DNA of 64,000 nucleotides from Lutibacter profundi (lineage in GTDB: Bacteria; Bacteroidota; Bacteroidia; Flavobacteriales; Flavobacteriaceae): positions 496,001-560,000 of the forward strand of contig NZ_CP013355.1 in the NCBI RefSeq assembly GCF_001543325.1, written 5' to 3'. Each line of letters begins with the position of its first letter. Position 1 is the first letter of the stretch. Below are positions 2,844 to 56,275 of this stretch, piece by piece. The position numbers and the translations under genes are program-made. The notes beneath the pieces are model-generated. The model saw nothing but the letters and a program-made list of their open reading frames with translations. It had not been told where the DNA came from and made no database searches.

Positions 2844-3859
2844 TGATATATTTTAATTAATTTAGAAATATAACTCTCTTTAGAAAAATTATGTTGAATA
2901 TTTTTATATAAATTAGTACCAAAGCTAATTCTTAATTCATTATTACCAATAAGTTTTAAAATTGCATCAGCTAATGTTATCTCATTAGCAGGTTCAACAA
3001 GTAATCCATTAACATTATTTTGTATTACTTTACTGCAATCACCTACATTGGTAACAACTACTGCTAATTTTGCCAATCCGTATTCTAATAAGGAAACAGG
3101 TAATCCCTCTGATTTAGAAGATAATACACCAATTGTTGCTTGTTCTAAAATATTGGATATATCTGAACAGCTACCATATAAAAATACAGAATTCATTATT
3201 TTATTTTCTGTAATAACGTTTTTTATTTTGGTAGAATAAGAATCATTCAAATCTAAGCCTACCAAATGCAAGGTCCAGTCAGGGCTTTTTGCATGTACAA
3301 GAACAAATGCTTTTAATAGGTTTATATGATCTTTTTGCGGACGCAAATTTGCTAAACAAACGATTTTTTTACCTTCTTCTCCTTTCAAAAAGGTGGTTTT
3401 AGGAATATTGATATCTAATGAGGCAAAGTTTGGAACTACATATACTTTTTTTGATTTTAAATGTTGTTTTGCCCATTTTTCTAGTAATTTATTAACTGAA
3501 ATTATACTGTTGAATAAGTTAGACATTATTTTTATAGGAAATATTTTTCGGGACTTTAAATTTTCACTATTACCATAATGATCGTGCCAAATTATTCTAA
3601 TTTTAAGGAAAGTCAGTTTAATTAAAACGGCTATAAAATAAGAAGATGAGTGCGCATGAATTACAGATATTTGATTCTCTTTTATAAATTTTCTTAATTT
3701 TATAAACGCTTTTATATCTAAAACTACTTTCTTCTTTAAAAATAAATAACCTACATCTTCTTTAATTTTAAGTTTTAAATTCCCTTCTTTTCTAGTTGTA
3801 CAAATATAAGATTGAAAACCTGCATTAGCTAGTTCATTAGCTATATTTACAGCCATCAT
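2840..3859 (-). CDS. Glycosyltransferase family 4 whose normal start codon is missing
   Basis: GT4 glycosyltransferase with the E-x7-E signature (EGLPVSLLEYG, E251 and E259) and a VNGLLVEP loop. The first in-frame ATG comes after the N-terminal glycine loop. Upstream codons, read through about 3908, spell IQIIDSLNSGGAE, the first beta strand and GGAE loop expected of the family. No ATG, GTG or TTG exists in that frame before a stop at about 3950. A palindromic repeat begins at exactly this point, so repeat insertion may have removed the original start. Translation could begin at an unusual codon, at this ATG (losing the first strand), or not at all. Coordinates given are for the first ATG. 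Confidence 0.75.
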   Translation of the reverse strand: MMAVNIANELANAGFQSYICTTRKEGNLKLKIKEDVGYLFLKKKVVLDIKAFIKLRKFIKENQISVIHAHSSSYFIAVLIKLTFLKIRIIWHDHYGNSENLKSRKIFPIKIMSNLFNSIISVNKLLEKWAKQHLKSKKVYVVPNFASLDINIPKTTFLKGEEGKKIVCLANLRPQKDHINLLKAFVLVHAKSPDWTLHLVGLDLNDSYSTKIKNVITENKIMNSVFLYGSCSDISNILEQATIGVLSSKSEGLPVSLLEYGLAKLAVVVTNVGDCSKVIQNNVNGLLVEPANEITLADAILKLIGNNELRISFGTNLYKNIQHNFSKESYISKLIKIYH

Positions 3860-3947
3860 TTCAGCTCCTCCAGAGTTTAGAGAATCTATTATTTGTATGA
3901 CTTTTAGTTTTTTGATACTTTTAGTTTTTTTTAAATAATATTTAAAT

Positions 3948-4062
3948 CGTCATGCTGAATTTATTTCAGTATCTGTCAATTCATTCCAAATGATGAGATT
4001 CCGCAACAAGTACGGAATGACGTGTCCGTTTCGTCATGCTGAACTTGGTTCAGCATCTGTTC
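3948..4062. repeat. Palindromic intergenic repeats left of the GIY-YIG gene
   Basis: Two imperfect palindromes (cgtcatgctgaa...ttcag and gagattccgc...ggaatgacg) are followed by a full tgctgaacttggttcagca palindrome. The stretch from about 4018 (tgacgtgtccgtttcg) through the palindrome is identical over about 44 bases to a copy near 4619-4662, on the other side of the GIY-YIG gene. Confidence 0.85.
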
Positions 4063-4080
4063 ATCCGTTTTTAAATTACA

Positions 4081-4365
4081 TTATAATTGATCATACAAAT
4101 CTATTAAATTTGGATTTGTTTCCTTAATTAAATTCCATTCCCATGCTTTATTCCAATTCTTCAATTGTTTTTCTCTTTTTATAGCTAGATTTATATCATT
4201 AAACTCCTCAACATATAATAAATCATGAACATTGTATTTTTTTGTAAATATTGAACCAATACCGTTTTTATGTTCTTCAATTCTCTTAAGTAAATTAGAA
4301 GTCACACCTATATACAGCACTTTTCTATTTTTATTACTAAGTATATAAATAAAATTTTCTTTCAT
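4081..4365 (-). CDS. GIY-YIG nuclease family protein
   Basis: A 94-residue stand-alone GIY-YIG domain protein. The family core is visible: FIYILSN near the N-terminus (the GIY strand), YIGVTSNLLKRIEEH (the YIG strand with its Arg), and an EREKQLK-like stretch (IKREKQLKNWNKAWEWNLI) typical of small Bacteroidota members. The family includes DNA endonucleases, but this short subclass has no established role. It lies between identical palindromic repeats, with its stop about 20 bases from the left copy and its start about 55 bases from the right array. It looks intact, unlike the decayed relative at 13109-13397, and breaks the run of glycosyltransferases. Confidence 0.88.
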   Translation of the reverse strand: MKENFIYILSNKNRKVLYIGVTSNLLKRIEEHKNGIGSIFTKKYNVHDLLYVEEFNDINLAIKREKQLKNWNKAWEWNLIKETNPNLIDLYDQL

Positions 4366-4420
4366 AGCCTTTTTTATTTTATTCTAAAGATTGCTAGTCG
4401 AGCTAGGAATAAAATGTGTT

Positions 4421-4701
4421 CGTCATGCTGAACTTGGTTCAGCATCTATTAATTAGATTTCCAAACCATATTCTAAACTATAACTCATGAGACCCTGAAA
4501 TAAATTCAGGGTGACGTGTCCGTTTCGTCATGCTAAACTTGGTTCAGCATCTCTATTAATTAGATTTTCAATTTATAATTTAAACTGTAAATCATAAGAC
4601 CCTGAAATAAATTCAGGGTGACGTGTCCGTTTCGTCATGCTGAACTTGGTTCAGCATCTGTTTCCTTTTTTAAAAGATTCTCCGCTAAGCTGAGAATGAC
4701 G
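4421..4701. repeat. Tandem array of about 2.7 palindromic repeat units
   Basis: Units start at 4421, 4526 and 4633, giving periods of about 105 and 107 bases. Each unit holds a cgtcatgctgaacttggttc palindrome, an AT-rich spacer, a gaccctgaaataaattcagg palindrome and gacgtgtccgttt. The third unit is cut short and ends in a different palindrome (attctccgctaagctgagaa) directly against the stop codon of the next glycosyltransferase. Confidence 0.9.
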
Positions 4702-4702
4702 C

Positions 4703-6097
4703 TTATTTCAACAACTTACCTATCTCATTTTCAAACCTCTCCAACGTATATTGTCTCGACCATTCCATTGCTTTTTTTACTTGAACGTTATACTTTTCTT
4801 CATTTGCAAGATAACTTTCTACAACTGAAACAATTTCATTTATATTTGGATTAACAATTGTGCCTCTTGTACCATTTCCCAACATATACGGAATGCAAGA
4901 TACATTACTTGTTATTGGTAAACAAGCCCAAAACATAGCTTCTGCAACCACTTTTGGCCAACCTTCAGATTTGGATATAAAAAGCAGGAAATGAGCTTTT
5001 TGATAGGCTTTTTTTACAATTTCTTTCGATGTATTTCCATATAAATGAATTGTCTTTTGCAATTGATTTTCTTTTATATATGCTTCAATGTTATTTCTTT
5101 CTGCTCCGTCACCATATATTTCTAATTGAACATTATAATTTTTATTTTTTAGTTGCTCAACTACTTTTACACTTAATAAGGGCTGTTTTCCTTTGGATAA
5201 AGCTCCTACAAATAAGAAGTTCAACTTAGCGTCATTACGAAGAGGATACGATGAGGTAACCTTTTTATTGGATAAGATAGCTTCACGTTGTTCGCTATGA
5301 CGTTTTACTTCGTCATGCTGAACTTGTTTCAGCATCTCATCATAAGATTCCGCATCAAGTGTAGAATGACGTTCTACTATTTCCTTTTCTGAATAGGTAG
5401 CCGTAAAAAACGGAATTATATTTTTACTTTGGTTTGGCCATTCTCCATATACTAAAACTTTAGAATTTTTAGTTAGAAAAGTATTGCTGAGTATCCACTT
5501 TTGAAGTCTATAGCTTAACGGTTGTTTACTTTTAGAATCCCAATTACCTGCATATTTAATGGTTTTGGGTTTATTTGGAAACAATATTTGTACAATACAG
5601 CTTAACAACCCAATATTACCCGGACATCTCAGGTGAATATGATCTGCCCATTGCATTGCTTTGTATATTACTCCTAAAATTTTTGGGATTTTAAAAATTG
5701 CTATAATTCCATTTTTTAATGATTTTATGTCAAATGACTGAATAGGTATTAATTCAATCCCGTCATTCCCAACTTGATTGGGAATCTGTTTCTTGTATTT
5801 CAAATCATGAGATCCCCAGTCAAGCTGAGGATGACGTTTGTTTTCGTCATTGCGAGGAGTGCGTGACGTAGCAATATTTTCATTGGATGAGATAGCTTCA
5901 CCTTGTTCGCTATGACGTTTATTAAACTGATACTTACTTTCTATTGAAGTAACTTTCTCTTCTGAAATAGGAGCTACAATTTGTACTTCATCTACATATT
6001 TTATCCACAAGTTCATCTCGCGAACATAAGGTTCATAAGCATAAATATGATTATTCTTTAATTTATGTTCAGCATGGGTTATGATTGCAAATTTCAT
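4703..6097 (-). CDS. Glycosyltransferase family 4 with two in-frame repeat insertions
   Basis: GT4-like glycosyltransferase of 464 residues, about 100 longer than its relatives. The family core is present: HIHLRCPGN (153-161), KYAGNWDSKS, the FLFVGALSKGKQPLLSV donor-domain start near 294, and KSEGWPKVVAEAMFWACLPI with the E-x7-E pattern. Two blocks do not belong to the fold: residues 60-113 (KRHSEQGEAIS...QIPNQVGNDG) and 242-290 (ERHSTLDAESYDEM...PLRNDA). Both are translated palindromic repeats that keep the frame and have no stop. Removing them leaves about 361 residues, the normal size. Both sit in probable surface loops: one after the first Rossmann strands, one at the boundary before the C-terminal domain. 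Whether the enzyme works is unknown. Confidence 0.85.
   Translation of the reverse strand: MKFAIITHAEHKLKNNHIYAYEPYVREMNLWIKYVDEVQIVAPISEEKVTSIESKYQFNKRHSEQGEAISSNENIATSRTPRNDENKRHPQLDWGSHDLKYKKQIPNQVGNDGIELIPIQSFDIKSLKNGIIAIFKIPKILGVIYKAMQWADHIHLRCPGNIGLLSCIVQILFPNKPKTIKYAGNWDSKSKQPLSYRLQKWILSNTFLTKNSKVLVYGEWPNQSKNIIPFFTATYSEKEIVERHSTLDAESYDEMLKQVQHDEVKRHSEQREAILSNKKVTSSYPLRNDAKLNFLFVGALSKGKQPLLSVKVVEQLKNKNYNVQLEIYGDGAERNNIEAYIKENQLQKTIHLYGNTSKEIVKKAYQKAHFLLFISKSEGWPKVVAEAMFWACLPITSNVSCIPYMLGNGTRGTIVNPNINEIVSVVESYLANEEKYNVQVKKAMEWSRQYTLERFENEIGKLLK
5228..5374. repeat. Repeat block inserted in frame in a glycosyltransferase (second block)
   Basis: It contains a cgtcattacgaagagg...ttgttcgctatgacg element, a cgtcatgctgaacttgtttc palindrome and a gattccgcatcaagtgtaga element. 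These match the types found between genes elsewhere in the window. It is translated as 49 residues on the minus strand without a stop. Confidence 0.88.
5759..5920. repeat. Repeat block inserted in frame in a glycosyltransferase (first block)
   Basis: Three repeat elements lie end to end: cgtcattcccaacttgattg, gatccccagtcaagctgagg, and a cgtcattgcgaggagtgcgt...ttcgctatgacg element. They are translated on the minus strand as 54 residues with no stop. Confidence 0.88.
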
Positions 6098-6143
6098 TTT
6101 TTTGCTAAATTACCTTTAGACGGTAAATATATTGTTTAAATTA

Positions 6144-7142
6144 TTAAAAGTTCAGCTTTGGCTTATTCAAAAATAAAGAAAACCACCCCACTAATCTACC
6201 AATACCTTCTGTAAATGCTTCTTTTTTATGAGTTCCGTAAAAACTATTTACAAAACGAAGCTTTAATAGTAAAATAACATTTAAATGAAATAACACTTTA
6301 GCTTTAAATGTAGGTTTAGGATACTTAACTCTCCACACATACCATCCATTTCTAACTACCATTTTACCATAGTTAAAATTATTTGGTCTTCCTGCTTCTT
6401 CATGATGATGTTCTAACTTAGCACCTGTATTTACGTATAATTGCCCAATTTTAGATGCTCTTAGGCAAAAATCTAAATCTTCATACAAGCCATAACCTTC
6501 AAAATAGGTTGAAAATTTTATTTTATCAAATACTTCTTTTTTAAATGAAGAAACACCTCCCATAAAAAATTCAACGGGATAGATTTTATTACTTGGCGGT
6601 AAAAAACTTATTGATCGCCCATGCGAAAAACTAGGCATAAACCCAGGTGGCGTTTTATCAATTAATTTTAAAAACTTACGAATCCTAAATCTAAGTCCTT
6701 CTTTTCTTTTAAAGCCATCGATACAATAATATGTTCTAAAACATTTTTCTTCTTTTTGAATCTTCCATTCAACTTCATTGGTAATATATCCACCTATTCC
6801 AACGGCATTCGGATAGTTTGTGTACGAGTGAATTAATTCTTTAAAGTAATTTTTAGCTAAAATGGTATCGTCATCTAAAAAACAAACAACCTCAATAGCA
6901 TCTGTTACTTTTTTAATTCCGTAATTGCGTTGTTTAGTAAGCCCTCTATCCTTTTCCGTTACTTTAAAATAACGGATATTTTTAAAAGGTTTTTTGGTTA
7001 AAATGTTTTTGGTATCATCATCTTCAGAACCATCAACAATTAAAATCTCATTAGGATAAATCGATTGTAATTGTACCGATTTTAAAAGGGTTACAATAGC
7101 TTTTGAACGTTGATATGTACATATAATGAGGCTAAATTTCAT
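6144..7142 (-). CDS. Glycosyltransferase family 2 (GT-A)
   Basis: A 332-residue GT2 glycosyltransferase. The N-terminal nucleotide-binding strand reads FSLIICTYQRSKAIVTLLKS, and the metal-binding acidic cluster FLDDDTIL is at residues 88-95. A GYGLYEDLDFCLRASKIG motif supplies the catalytic-base region, and LEHHHEEAGR follows. No convincing transmembrane segment is present, though a hydrophobic stretch near the C-terminus could bind the membrane. It ends 46 bases before the next glycosyltransferase and starts two bases after the upstream gene stops, so it is probably translated as part of the cluster transcript. Donor and acceptor are unknown. Confidence 0.9.
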   Translation of the reverse strand: MKFSLIICTYQRSKAIVTLLKSVQLQSIYPNEILIVDGSEDDDTKNILTKKPFKNIRYFKVTEKDRGLTKQRNYGIKKVTDAIEVVCFLDDDTILAKNYFKELIHSYTNYPNAVGIGGYITNEVEWKIQKEEKCFRTYYCIDGFKRKEGLRFRIRKFLKLIDKTPPGFMPSFSHGRSISFLPPSNKIYPVEFFMGGVSSFKKEVFDKIKFSTYFEGYGLYEDLDFCLRASKIGQLYVNTGAKLEHHHEEAGRPNNFNYGKMVVRNGWYVWRVKYPKPTFKAKVLFHLNVILLLKLRFVNSFYGTHKKEAFTEGIGRLVGWFSLFLNKPKLNF

Positions 7143-16248: not shown

Positions 16249-17382
16249 TTAAATTTTTAAATATGATTCTAAAACTTTTTTCTTTATGAATTCTCTTTCA
16301 AATTGTGGTTTCAAATGTTGTTGGTTTATTTCAAAAGCACCTTTTAATAACATAGTATTTAAAACTACTTGTAAAATAATATTTTTTATCTCATCAATAT
16401 TTTCAAAATCTTCAATTATTAAACCATTCTCTGCATTAACTATAATTTCTTCAGTCACCTTCCCTGGATTAGATTGTATTGGGAAAGCACCCAAGCAAAT
16501 AGCTTCCAATAATGTGTTTGGTATTCCATCAGAATTGCTATTCCCAATATAAATTAACGCTTTCCCCATTAATTTTAAAACTTCAGTATGACTTACTTTT
16601 CCAATAATTGAAAAGTTTTTCCATTGTTTTAATTCAGATTGGTTTGAATAATTTATAACTTCTTCATCTGCACCAAAAACAACTATTTTAAATATTTTTA
16701 GTTGTTCTTGTAATTTTTCAAGTGCTTGTAATACTTGTATCGCTCTTCCAGACCTTCCCTGATACCCCTTAATAATTATGGTATTTCTATTTTCTAATGG
16801 CAATATATAGGTATTCATCATTTCCAAATCAAAACCACCTCCTCCAGGATAAACTCCTAAAAATTCTCCTTTAAAACCATACCTTAGAGATAATTGATAA
16901 TCTCGTCTGCAATCGGAAAATAAATAATCAACTCTTGGTAATACATTTTTAATATCCTCTAAAAAACTTGATTCATTTTGAAAATAGTACAAATCACTCC
17001 CCCAGGAAGAATAAATCCATTTTATATTTTTATAGTGTTGCATAACACTCAAAATAGGCGTACACGAAACATATAACGCAAAACTATGTACTACATCTGG
17101 TTGAATTTCTTTTAGTTTTTTTTCAAAAACGATTGCCACTTTTCTATCATTTAATTTTTGAAAAAATGTATATAATCCTGTCATTTGTTTTTTAAAGAAA
17201 TATCTACCTGGATAATTCCAACGTCTTTTCCAATTGACTATTTGATGTACCCAATCTAACCGTTTTATTTTTTTTCCTCCATCGTTAATGTCAAACCAAT
17301 ACACTTCATGACCTGTATCTTTAAGTTGTTCTGTCCATCTAAAAAAATGAATGGATGCCATAGAAACTAGTAAGATTTTCAT
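16249..17382 (-). CDS. Glycosyltransferase family 4 (GT-B)
   Basis: A 377-residue GT4-like enzyme. The N-terminus reads MKILLVSMASIHFFRWTEQL, with the glycine loop replaced by a divergent segment. HSFALYVSCTPIL and YSSWGSDLYYF are acceptor-side motifs. The donor domain has IIKGYQGRSGRAIQVLQAL and GNSNSDGIPNTLLEAICLGAFPIQSNPGKVTEE, in which the first glutamate of the usual E-x7-E is replaced by Asp. The gene sits 15 bases upstream of the unassigned transferase and one base downstream of the GT2 gene, in line with the cluster transcript. Confidence 0.88.
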   Translation of the reverse strand: MKILLVSMASIHFFRWTEQLKDTGHEVYWFDINDGGKKIKRLDWVHQIVNWKRRWNYPGRYFFKKQMTGLYTFFQKLNDRKVAIVFEKKLKEIQPDVVHSFALYVSCTPILSVMQHYKNIKWIYSSWGSDLYYFQNESSFLEDIKNVLPRVDYLFSDCRRDYQLSLRYGFKGEFLGVYPGGGGFDLEMMNTYILPLENRNTIIIKGYQGRSGRAIQVLQALEKLQEQLKIFKIVVFGADEEVINYSNQSELKQWKNFSIIGKVSHTEVLKLMGKALIYIGNSNSDGIPNTLLEAICLGAFPIQSNPGKVTEEIIVNAENGLIIEDFENIDEIKNIILQVVLNTMLLKGAFEINQQHLKPQFEREFIKKKVLESYLKI

Positions 17383-38465: not shown

Positions 38466-39152
38466 CTAGTAGTCAGGTATGTTTAAAAAATTAAGAATGA
38501 GATTGATAAGTTCTTCTCTATGCTCAGATCTAAACATATTTTGGGCATGGGATGCTCCTGAGAATATTTTTAGTTCTTTAGGCTTACTTGATTCGGTGTA
38601 TATTTTATTTACACGAGTAAAAAGACGTTCATTTTTAGAAACTACAAATAACTTTTTTATAGACTTACTTGTAATTCCATCACCACCTGCAGGTGCAAGT
38701 AGTATTACTTTATTTATAACTTTATCGGTTTTTGTATTTAGCGCATTTAAAACTGCTGCACCTCCCATACTTCCTCCTACAATTGCAATTTGATTAAAGC
38801 CTTTTTCTTTTAAAAAATTAATGGCTCCTAATATATCTAATGAGCGTTTATTGGTACTTCCTTTTTTACTTTTTCCATACCCCCTAAAGTCTATACAAAA
38901 AGACGAAACACCCTCTTTTTGTAATTTTTTAGCCATAAAATACCAACTTTCTTTATTGAAAATTGCTCCATGAGCAAAAATAACCACAAGCTTTTTATTT
39001 CCTTTGAAGAATGAAGCCTCAATAGTTCCTCCATCTTCAGTATGATAATTCACCAATTTAAAATGGGTAGTATCAACAACCTTTTTAGATTGTGCATTTA
39101 AGCTTCCTAAAAAAAGGAACAAAAACATAATGTGTACATATTTATTTTTCAT
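38466..39152 (-). CDS. Secreted alpha/beta hydrolase
   Basis: 228 residues with a signal peptide (about 1-20, ending LGSLNAQ). The alpha/beta-hydrolase core shows LVVIFAHGAIFNKESWYFMA (oxyanion HG), FCIDFRGYGKSKKG, the nucleophile elbow IVGGSMGGAAVLNAL (GGSMGG) and a late FSGASHAQNMF with the catalytic His. The acid residue is less clear. The 5' end of this gene and its upstream region are duplicated at 40408-40440. The substrate is unknown. Confidence 0.87.
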   Translation of the reverse strand: MKNKYVHIMFLFLFLGSLNAQSKKVVDTTHFKLVNYHTEDGGTIEASFFKGNKKLVVIFAHGAIFNKESWYFMAKKLQKEGVSSFCIDFRGYGKSKKGSTNKRSLDILGAINFLKEKGFNQIAIVGGSMGGAAVLNALNTKTDKVINKVILLAPAGGDGITSKSIKKLFVVSKNERLFTRVNKIYTESSKPKELKIFSGASHAQNMFRSEHREELINLILNFLNIPDY

Positions 39153-39537
39153 TTTGTGTTTATATTAAGTGTGCGATTATAAATAATGACAATATAAATG
39201 TAATAACTTTAAATAACGTTAAAAATCTTTAAAGCTTCATTGTAGGCGCTTTCAAAACTCATGGCATTAATTCCTGTAAAAGCCTTTTGCTGTTGGAAAT
39301 AAGAAAATAATTTTTCGGTTGGTATATTTCCCGTGAGTTCATCTTTAGCCTTAGGGCAACCACCATAACCTTTAATTGCACCATCAAATCTGCTACATCC
39401 TGCTTTAAACGCAGCATCAACTTTTTCAAACCAAGTTGATGGTGTAGAGCTACCTACTGTATCTGATAATAATAAAATGGTAATACCCATTTTTGATAGT
39501 TTATCAGTCCAATCAGATACAATTTCAACATTCCAAG
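39121..39537. repeat. Direct repeat copy A (hydrolase 5' end, spacer and mvaB 3' part)
   Basis: Near-identical to 40408-40916, same orientation. Differences are scattered substitutions, a 14-base gap near 39195 and a 78-base gap within the mvaB part (between tggtgt microhomologies). The match begins at aaaaacataatgtg and ends at attccaag. Confidence 0.93.
39209..39537 (-). pseudogene. mvaB C-terminal fragment (duplicate)
   Basis: A copy of the 3' part of the intact mvaB at 40507-41370. It reads in frame from FNVI at the stop back to ...NVEIVSDWTDKLSKMGITIL, then runs into unrelated sequence. Twenty-six residues (QIIDYLFSNL...GAHLHTT) are deleted in frame, which removes a metal-ligand His motif. 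It carries a few substitutions (for example GGCPKAKDELTGNIP). The fragment has no start region, and an internal ATG gives a 93-codon frame that is unlikely to be functional. Confidence 0.93.
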
Positions 39538-40369: not shown

Positions 40370-40407
40370 ATAACATCAGAATCATTAAGTTTTAAAAATT
40401 TGTAAAG

Positions 40408-40916
40408 AAAAACATAATGTGTACATATTTATTTTTCATTTTGTGTTTATATTAAGTGTGCGATTATAAATAATGACAATATATGCTATTAAAAAATGTA
40501 ATAACTTTAAATAACGTTAAAAATCTTTAAAGCCTCATTGTAGGCGCTTTCAAAACTCATAGCATTAATTCCTGTAAAAGCCTTTTGCTGTTGGAAATAA
40601 GAAAATAATTTTTCGGTTGGCATATTTCCCGTGAGTTCATCTTTAGCCATAGGGCAACCACCATAACCTTTAATTGCACCATCAAATCTGCTACATCCTG
40701 CTTTAAACGCAGCATCAACTTTTTCAAACCAAGTTGATGGTGTTGTATGTAAATGGGCTCCAAACTCTATATTTGGATAAGCTGGAATTAAATTTGAAAA
40801 CAAATAGTCAATAATTTGTGGTGTAGAGCTACCTACTGTATCTGATAATGATAAAATGGTAATACCCATTTTTGATAGTTTATCAGTCCAATCAGATACA
40901 ATTTCAACATTCCAAG
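40408..40916. repeat. Direct repeat copy B (hydrolase 5' remnant, spacer and mvaB 3' part)
   Basis: Same orientation as 39121-39537. The right part is the 3' half of the intact mvaB. The left 33 bases are the first codons of the hydrolase gene, cut off here. The two copies enclose an 870-base segment with the lipoprotein gene. Confidence 0.93.
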
Positions 40917-56196: not shown

Positions 56197-56275
56197 CGTC
56201 ATGCTGAACTAGTTTCAGCATCTCATGATTATTGTACCTTTTAGTTTGTGACCCTGAAACAAGTTCAGGGTGACG
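56197..56275. repeat. Palindromic repeats between hisH and hisA
   Basis: cgtcatgctgaactagtttc palindrome, AT-rich spacer, then gaccctgaaacaagttcagg followed by gtgacg. It has the same two-part layout as the units of the tandem array at 4421-4701. Confidence 0.85.

Follow-up and report, generated by a model that had tools for sequence, protein, structure and literature searches.

In-frame CGTC-type repeats in a glycosyltransferase gene of Lutibacter and their possible link to an adjoining GIY-YIG nuclease

A glycosyltransferase (GT) gene of Lutibacter profundi contains palindromic repeats that also lie between genes of the same genome, and these repeats are read in frame with the rest of the gene. 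How did intergenic repeats come to be coding sequence at this locus, and is the interrupted gene still a working one? We addressed these questions in a window of 64,000 nucleotides (contig NZ_CP013355.1, positions 496,001 to 560,000), in orthologues of the gene from related genomes, and in the small GIY-YIG nuclease gene that adjoins it. Unless stated otherwise, positions are those of the window.

Results

Structure of the GT gene and its two repeat blocks

The GT gene (4703..6097, minus strand) has an ATG start and encodes 464 residues. The Pfam profile PF00534 (Glycos_transf_1) matches the protein with an E value of 6.4e-26 from residue 288 onward, and the core includes columns that are invariant among the aligned orthologues, in agreement with the assignment to GT4. 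E378 and E386, which we take to be the EX7E motif, are among the invariant residues.

The initial annotation described repeat blocks that are translated without a stop inside an otherwise normal GT4 gene, and this holds for both blocks, whose boundaries we place at 5230-5371 and 5761-5920. Block 1 (5761..5920, minus strand; residues ~61-113) lies in the N-terminal part of the enzyme and consists of a CGTC inverted pair (5761-5836) and a GTCATTGCGA-type palindrome (5845-5920). Block 2 (5230..5371, minus strand; residues ~243-289), just before the C-terminal GT domain, has a GTCATTGCGA-type palindrome (5230-5305) and a CGTC inverted pair (5311-5371). The two GTCATTGCGA-type palindromes are 76 bp each and 79% identical, and the inverted pairs are built of 25-bp hairpins, each starting with CGTC. 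When the four composite elements were folded as single-stranded DNA, the z-scores were -2.77, -1.95, -3.69, and -2.94.

Alignment with 49 uninterrupted relatives places the inserts at two sites. At site 1, between P43 and H153, the protein has gained 53 residues relative to a segment that measures 55-58 residues in all 49 relatives. At site 2, between S236 and G298, the gain is 40 residues relative to a segment of 22-23 residues in 45 of the 49 (26, 27, 31, and 49 residues in the other four). Between the other anchors, segment lengths differ by no more than two residues, except for one truncated start. The repeats do span about 103 codons, as originally stated, but the net added length is 93 residues (53 + 40); therefore, the insert at site 2 seems to have taken the place of about ten linker residues. 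The alignment with the best solved relative, WlaC (6eji), begins at about residue 288, directly after site 2.

Identity and distribution of the repeats

The hairpin detector found 17 hairpins in the window compared with 0, 4, 0, 1, and 0 in five mononucleotide shuffles, and the hairpin at 17179 is probably a chance match. As noted at the outset, the same elements occur between genes elsewhere in the window, at 3948-4056, 4421-4701, 24876, and 56197-56275. The first of these regions holds three hairpins on the far side of the nuclease gene. The second is an array of six hairpins in the gap between the nuclease and the GT gene, and each of its six frames is interrupted. With a strict CGTC pattern, we obtained 24 matches in the 2.97-Mb genome, and the reversed pattern gave none.

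Members of the CGTC REP family carry an unpaired CGTC (or TGTC, CCTC) tag at one end and a stem of 8-9 bp, with AT at the first two positions, around a loop of 4-5 nt. The four in-gene hairpins and 16 of the 17 window hairpins, found with a detector that requires a CGTC or TGTC tag, start with CGTC. All four GT hairpins have a stem of 8 bp that starts with AT and a loop of 5 nt; some intergenic stems in the window start with AC, and some hairpins are best scored as a stem of 9 with a loop of 3. In these features, in their arrangement as inverted pairs, and in the presence of some copies within genes, the elements resemble the CGTC REPs described by Di Nocera, De Gregorio and Rocco (2013; PMC3733652). 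They differ in the tail, which is CT in the window and CCA in that description, whereas nearly all alphaproteobacterial CGTC matches in our plasmid set (see below) end in CCA or CCC.

Repeats of two families cluster around their own nuclease genes in this genome. Thirteen of the 24 strict CGTC elements, including the four in the GT gene, fall in a stretch of 1.9 kb surrounding one nuclease gene. A second family, the GGCTGAGC-type elements, has six of its nine copies within 5 kb of its own nuclease, two of them in the mvaD gene. The GTCATTGCGA-type elements give 14 matches in the window genome, in which we recognised no nuclease matching them. Elsewhere in the window, three stretches (79, 250, and 98 bases) occur as near-identical copies (98-99%) in 39118-39537 and 40405-40916, at a spacing of about 1.3 kb.

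GT inserts across Lutibacter

We compared 14 GT orthologues identified as Lutibacter, namely that of the window, those of eleven relatives and of Lutibacter flavus, and that of NORP37. Extra residues are present at site 2 in 13 of them, and site 1 is also extended by at least 10 residues in seven of these 13 carriers; the NORP37 protein has no extra residues at either site. The open frames of the carriers range from 409 codons (G008) to 761 (G024), and the frame of G019 is at least 950 codons long, where the contig end cuts an array of 6.7 identical 240-bp units. The repeat content of the inserts varies by species. CGTC hairpins are recognisable in the GT gene of ten carriers; the inserts of G008, G010, and G021 have no detectable CGTC hairpin, and translated remnants alone suggest their repeat origin. 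In Lutibacter flavus strain DSM 27993, both sites carry inserts, in which a single hairpin can be recognised, and the pattern is thus not confined to metagenome bins.

Among the orthologues searched, we saw no sign that unrelated genera carry the same extra residues. The matches listed include 75 additional orthologues (G030, NORP37, and 73 others); none of these has an in-gene CGTC hairpin, and their open frames span 370-402 codons. This group leaves out five loci: four that duplicate G007, G002, G021, and G014, and one in which no GT was detected. Two of the 75 (L059 and L060) have longer linkers, but of other sequence. Because the 75 include Flavobacteriaceae bins, more Lutibacter may hide among them.

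Selection, frame, and reading phase

The core of the gene (360 codons or columns; pairs with pN under 0.25 and finite dS) has dN/dS values of 0.066-0.198; many of the dS estimates are above 1 and only approximate, but the most closely related pairs give concordant values. By these sequence tests, the GT core is under purifying selection and the gene remains a working one. The idea that the gene is dead, or that the blocks are excised from mRNA or protein in the manner of introns or inteins, is accordingly very improbable. GIY-YIG nucleases are often intron-resident, which would suit an intron, and the adjoining nuclease does match an NCBIfam intron endonuclease profile, but at 19.2 bits, far under the cut-off of 56.05. 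A search of 3800-6300 with Rfam gave nothing above cut-off, which rules against an intron or known RNA element. The dN/dS range of the core (0.07-0.20) and its two invariant glutamates argue against a pseudogene, and the frame is intact across 13 species.

Between genes, most frames of such repeats are closed. In 12 intergenic REP arrays of at least 130 bp, only three of 72 frames are open, compared with at least one open frame, including the coding frame, in all four in-gene arrays. Furthermore, all 47 in-gene CGTC hairpins are read in one phase, which gives peptides such as RHSTLDAES in the sense orientation (26 of 26) and MLKQVQHD in the antisense orientation (21 of 21). Among the 29 distinct in-gene hairpins, 19 have another open frame, and the frame used is the more hydrophilic in every one of these 19 cases (mean -1.14 for the used frame versus +0.57 for the other open frame). 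Because the hairpins share descent, and many have been copied from others, the number of independent events is below 19. Even so, the repeat-encoded peptide seems to be under selection, at least against hydrophobic loops.

In-frame repeats in other genes

Six of the 24 strict CGTC matches lie in frame within genes: four in the GT gene and a single one each in mvaD and an ATPase-like gene. The remaining matches looked intergenic, with frames checked for all but the one at 1214547, beside a second nuclease gene. The mvaD gene (L259:631-1776; G000:C1 about 1266030-1267175) has an in-frame insert that combines CGTC and GGCTGAGC-type palindromes. Its identity is based on Pfam and on a TIGR01240 match at 160 bits, just below the 171-bit cut-off. 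The 150 positions of its N-terminal profile are spread over 185 residues, as expected of an insert. The ATPase-like gene has weak family matches only and was read without an alignment to an insert-free homologue. Since elements cluster with a nuclease around both GT and mvaD, a matching nuclease is near two of the three genes that hold in-frame repeats.

We also inspected 12 further regions of G024, in which two hairpins overlap a gene. One is upstream of the likely true start, and we take the other, a TGTC match, as chance. In G008, seven GTCATTGCGA-type repeats stand in a row 3' of the GT gene (L031 ~5966-6163), partly in frame with the next gene.

The GT inserts are not a single accident, as the series across species, the uniform phase, the two further genes that seem to hold in-frame repeats, and the adjoining REP-flanked nuclease show.

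A GIY-YIG nuclease gene next to the GT gene

Directly 3' of the GT gene is the gene for a single-domain GIY-YIG nuclease of 94 residues (4081..4365, minus strand; PF01541, E value 8.6e-18), which we regard as a candidate partner of the CGTC repeats. CGTC hairpins flank it on both sides. The distance from the GT gene to the next gene is about 100 bp in NORP37 and L. flavus, versus about 750 bp of repeats plus the nuclease in the window. A REP-flanked small GIY-YIG gene occupies the same position in six further species. Among the matches listed, some of which have short flanks, a GIY-YIG gene lies within 1 kb of GT in seven of the 13 carriers versus none of the 75 others. No intact nuclease was found within 1.7 kb 3' of GT in G008, G010, G014, G021, G024, or L. 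flavus.

A phmmer search of solved structures (E value 0.01) gave no sequence match to the GIY-YIG protein. In GIY-YIG homing endonucleases, the gene is able to spread with its own site. The nuclease described here has the same domain, and its gene might likewise spread with its own site; in contrast to those enzymes, it is a stand-alone protein of 94 residues, with no intron found and with multi-copy palindromes flanking it.

Two further features of such loci were observed. The window genome has a second nuclease of the window type (L121, G000:C1:1214647-1214844) with an internal stop and CGTC REPs on both sides. A GTAAG-N19-CTTAC inverted repeat (N23 in L233) is found near the start of the nuclease gene in 12 of 28 Bacteroidota loci (L232-L237, L239-L241, L244, L245, and L249), nowhere else within the same loci, and in none of 76 Lutibacter and Flavobacteriales loci. 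It is possibly a leader hairpin or an operator.

Association of nuclease genes with palindromic repeats

We collected 81 small GIY-YIG genes from 40 related genomes and that of the window, using short-frame picks made by hand among the matches listed; the L131 nuclease (873-codon frame) was excluded, and identical G017 copies were counted twice. A CGTC REP lies within 300 bp of 18 of the 81 and on both sides of 13. For the window-type nucleases (score of at least 124), these numbers rise to 13 and 11 of 21. Of the eight window-type nucleases without a CGTC REP within 300 bp among these matches, seven, including G010_C71_226950, are labelled with the GTCATTGCGA type. The UvrC control (22 loci) contained no REP in 89 kb.

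A motif-free test gave a similar picture. In 73 of 91 small GIY-YIG genes among the matches listed (the 81 plus 14 plasmid genes, minus four of these 95 with short flanks), the two 250-bp flanks have an exact repeat (minimum 13 bp) in common, compared with 11 direct repeats and one inverted repeat in 285 random segments; tandem gene copies may add some of the shared repeats. Coding DNA makes up most of the UvrC and random controls, and the nuclease flanks are intergenic, so the contrast is somewhat overstated.

A second Bacteroidota set, comprising the best matches of 29 other genomes (L257 dropped), has a shared flank repeat in 18 of 28 loci versus two of 84 controls, and a CGTC REP is near 16 of the 28, on both sides of 12. 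The plasmid set covers 14 of 33 plasmid records from three phyla. Nine of its 14 loci, all in Pseudomonadota, have a CGTC REP within 300 bp of the nuclease gene, seven on both sides. We counted 21 plasmid REPs in 8.4 kb near nuclease genes versus 46 in 215 kb farther off; a Photobacterium plasmid, with one REP near and 29 far, shows no enrichment. No CGTC REP was found near the nuclease on the plasmids of Rhizobium tumorigenes and Sinorhizobium K101. By eye, GTC-tagged palindromes can be seen at the Novosphingobium, Planktothrix, and Spirosoma nuclease loci and not in Rhizobium tumorigenes. The nuclease gene lies between sufB and sufC in Azospirillum lipoferum and among DISARM genes in Planktothrix, as expected of a mobile unit.

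To relate repeats to nucleases, we distinguished seven palindrome families, six of which were named by eye from the same flanks, with counting done by script. The tree holds the 62 nucleases scoring at least 75 (19 of the 81 score below) and has few columns and many open forks. On it, the 51 labelled nucleases require 10 family changes versus at least 27 in 300 shuffles, with the 11 unlabelled ones left out of the count. Without seven rows that are GT neighbours or duplicates, 44 genes still require 10 changes versus at least 25 in the shuffles. The REP family follows the nuclease clade, a match that could reflect nuclease and repeats being inherited or carried together.

At the genome level, the number of REPs within the genus is not significantly related to a matching nuclease (medians 24 and 7 in 11 and 14 genomes, with groups compiled by hand; p = 0.089). 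In G024, we counted 79 pattern matches; its contiguous inserts are the largest, and it has no matching nuclease among the matches listed.

Discussion

Proposed origin of the GT inserts

We think it probable that CGTC REPs entered the GT gene and are read in frame, and that a mobile system of nuclease and REPs seeds these repeats. The GT blocks would be CGTC-type REPs together with the related GTCATTGCGA-type palindrome, inserted and read through, and each block would be translated and form part of the enzyme. The nuclease may cut at or near the palindromes and so help copies into nearby DNA; cleavage at a palindrome followed by repair copying would be the likeliest mechanism. Insertions that broke the gene would be lost, and the survivors would be those at two permissive places, in frame and in the hydrophilic register. 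The 240-bp units of G019 suggest that arrays may then grow by tandem duplication in steps of a multiple of three bases. No gain of function need be assumed for the enzyme.

A wider reading, which we favour by a smaller margin, is that single-domain GIY-YIG nucleases are the mobility enzymes of GTC-tagged palindromes, clade-specific and cassette-borne, with the GT loops as fallout. The GTC-tagged super-family would then comprise the CGTC REPs, their sister families, and possibly some of the Rickettsia palindromic elements (RPEs). Each nuclease clade would recognise its own palindrome family and spread it mainly near its own gene, and the nuclease gene itself would be a palindrome-bracketed cassette that enters operons. 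The in-frame GT loops would be a by-product of this local spread, retained only in the hydrophilic register.

The strongest competitor is passive tolerance, in which the repeats are spread by a host process and the nuclease is a mere passenger of repeat-rich intergenic DNA. The non-significant genome-level correlation and the six of 13 carriers without an intact nuclease near GT would fit it, and so would the finding of the 2013 catalogue that no transposase is linked with CGTC repeats (PMC3733652). In addition, our controls were limited to UvrC loci and random segments. However, the results of those same controls, the matching of family to clade, the close flanking in Pseudomonadota, and the local clusters in the window genome all speak for a nuclease that takes part, and we consider passive tolerance unlikely.

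Less likely again, and in our view improbable, is that the inserts are functional, namely variable linkers that tune acceptor choice or domain movement, with arrays providing reversible, frame-keeping length variation. The use of the same two sites genus-wide, a single reading phase, and the identical 240-bp units at the G019 contig end would suit such a role. On the other hand, the repeat content varies by species, NORP37 and other relatives retain the GT without inserts, and avoidance of stops and hydrophobic loops explains the phase as well. An assembly or chimera artefact is scarcely credible: metagenome bins account for several of the relatives and the G019 contig is broken at its array, but the window genome is one 2.97-Mb contig and contiguous cases exist in G007, G009, G020, G024, and L. 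flavus DSM 27993.

Comparison with known systems

In-frame REPs are already known from Rickettsia and other bacteria (PMC3733652, PMC10969869). The catalogue of CGTC REPs includes Bacteroidetes among the host phyla and reports in-gene inserts of 20-30 residues for dimers or grouped elements and 43-82 residues for the largest clusters, as well as one recB insert whose position is roughly shared by two Xanthomonas species (PMC3733652). By comparison with those cases, the GT series involves two sites, 13 species, and up to about 200 residues per site or more.

The initial annotation likened the inserts to the Rickettsia elements and proposed tolerated in-frame insertion, and the extra residues in 13 of 14 Lutibacter orthologues with their constant reading phase support that proposal. 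It also placed the inserts in surface loops, a prediction based on their position in the sequence. As in Rickettsia (PMC10969869), palindromes lie in frame within genes of unrelated function, here the GT gene in 13 species, mvaD, and the ATPase-like gene. The Rickettsia elements are about 150 bp long according to the same review, versus 61-76 bp for the composites here, and the two are likened by description; the present inserts also differ in that they recur at the same fixed positions of a single gene and belong to a genus of Bacteroidota. The earlier view that the repeats are different from those of Rickettsia is only partly true. RPE-4 and RPE-6 belong to the CGTC super-family according to the catalogue (PMC3733652), and the analogy is therefore closer than first thought.

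The nuclease loci can be compared with REP/RAYT systems (REPtrons), which also have a palindrome-bracketed gene for a DNA-processing enzyme in repeat-specific versions (PMC3733652). The candidate system has repeats on both sides of the nuclease gene in 11 of 21 window-type loci among the matches listed, 12 of 28 loci in the second Bacteroidota set, and 7 of 14 plasmid loci. It differs from REPtrons in having a GIY-YIG nuclease rather than an HUH tyrosine transposase and GTC-tagged rather than GTAG-tagged repeats (PMC3733652). We recognised no literature linking GIY-YIG nucleases with REP or CGTC repeats among the papers listed, a set that has most subscription papers and all preprints outside it. 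As far as these searches reach, the same-site series, the single hydrophilic phase, and above all the nuclease association are new.

Implications

CGTC repeats span several phyla, and the work that catalogued them found no association with transposase genes, so that no mobility enzyme was known for them at the time (PMC3733652). A matched nuclease family makes their mobility directly testable in vitro. The GT series is a natural experiment on mobile DNA turning into coding sequence, with thirteen species, two entry sites, and an open frame, one phase, and a hydrophilic peptide as the rules of survival; in some of the inserts, the repeats have decayed towards an ordinary-looking linker.
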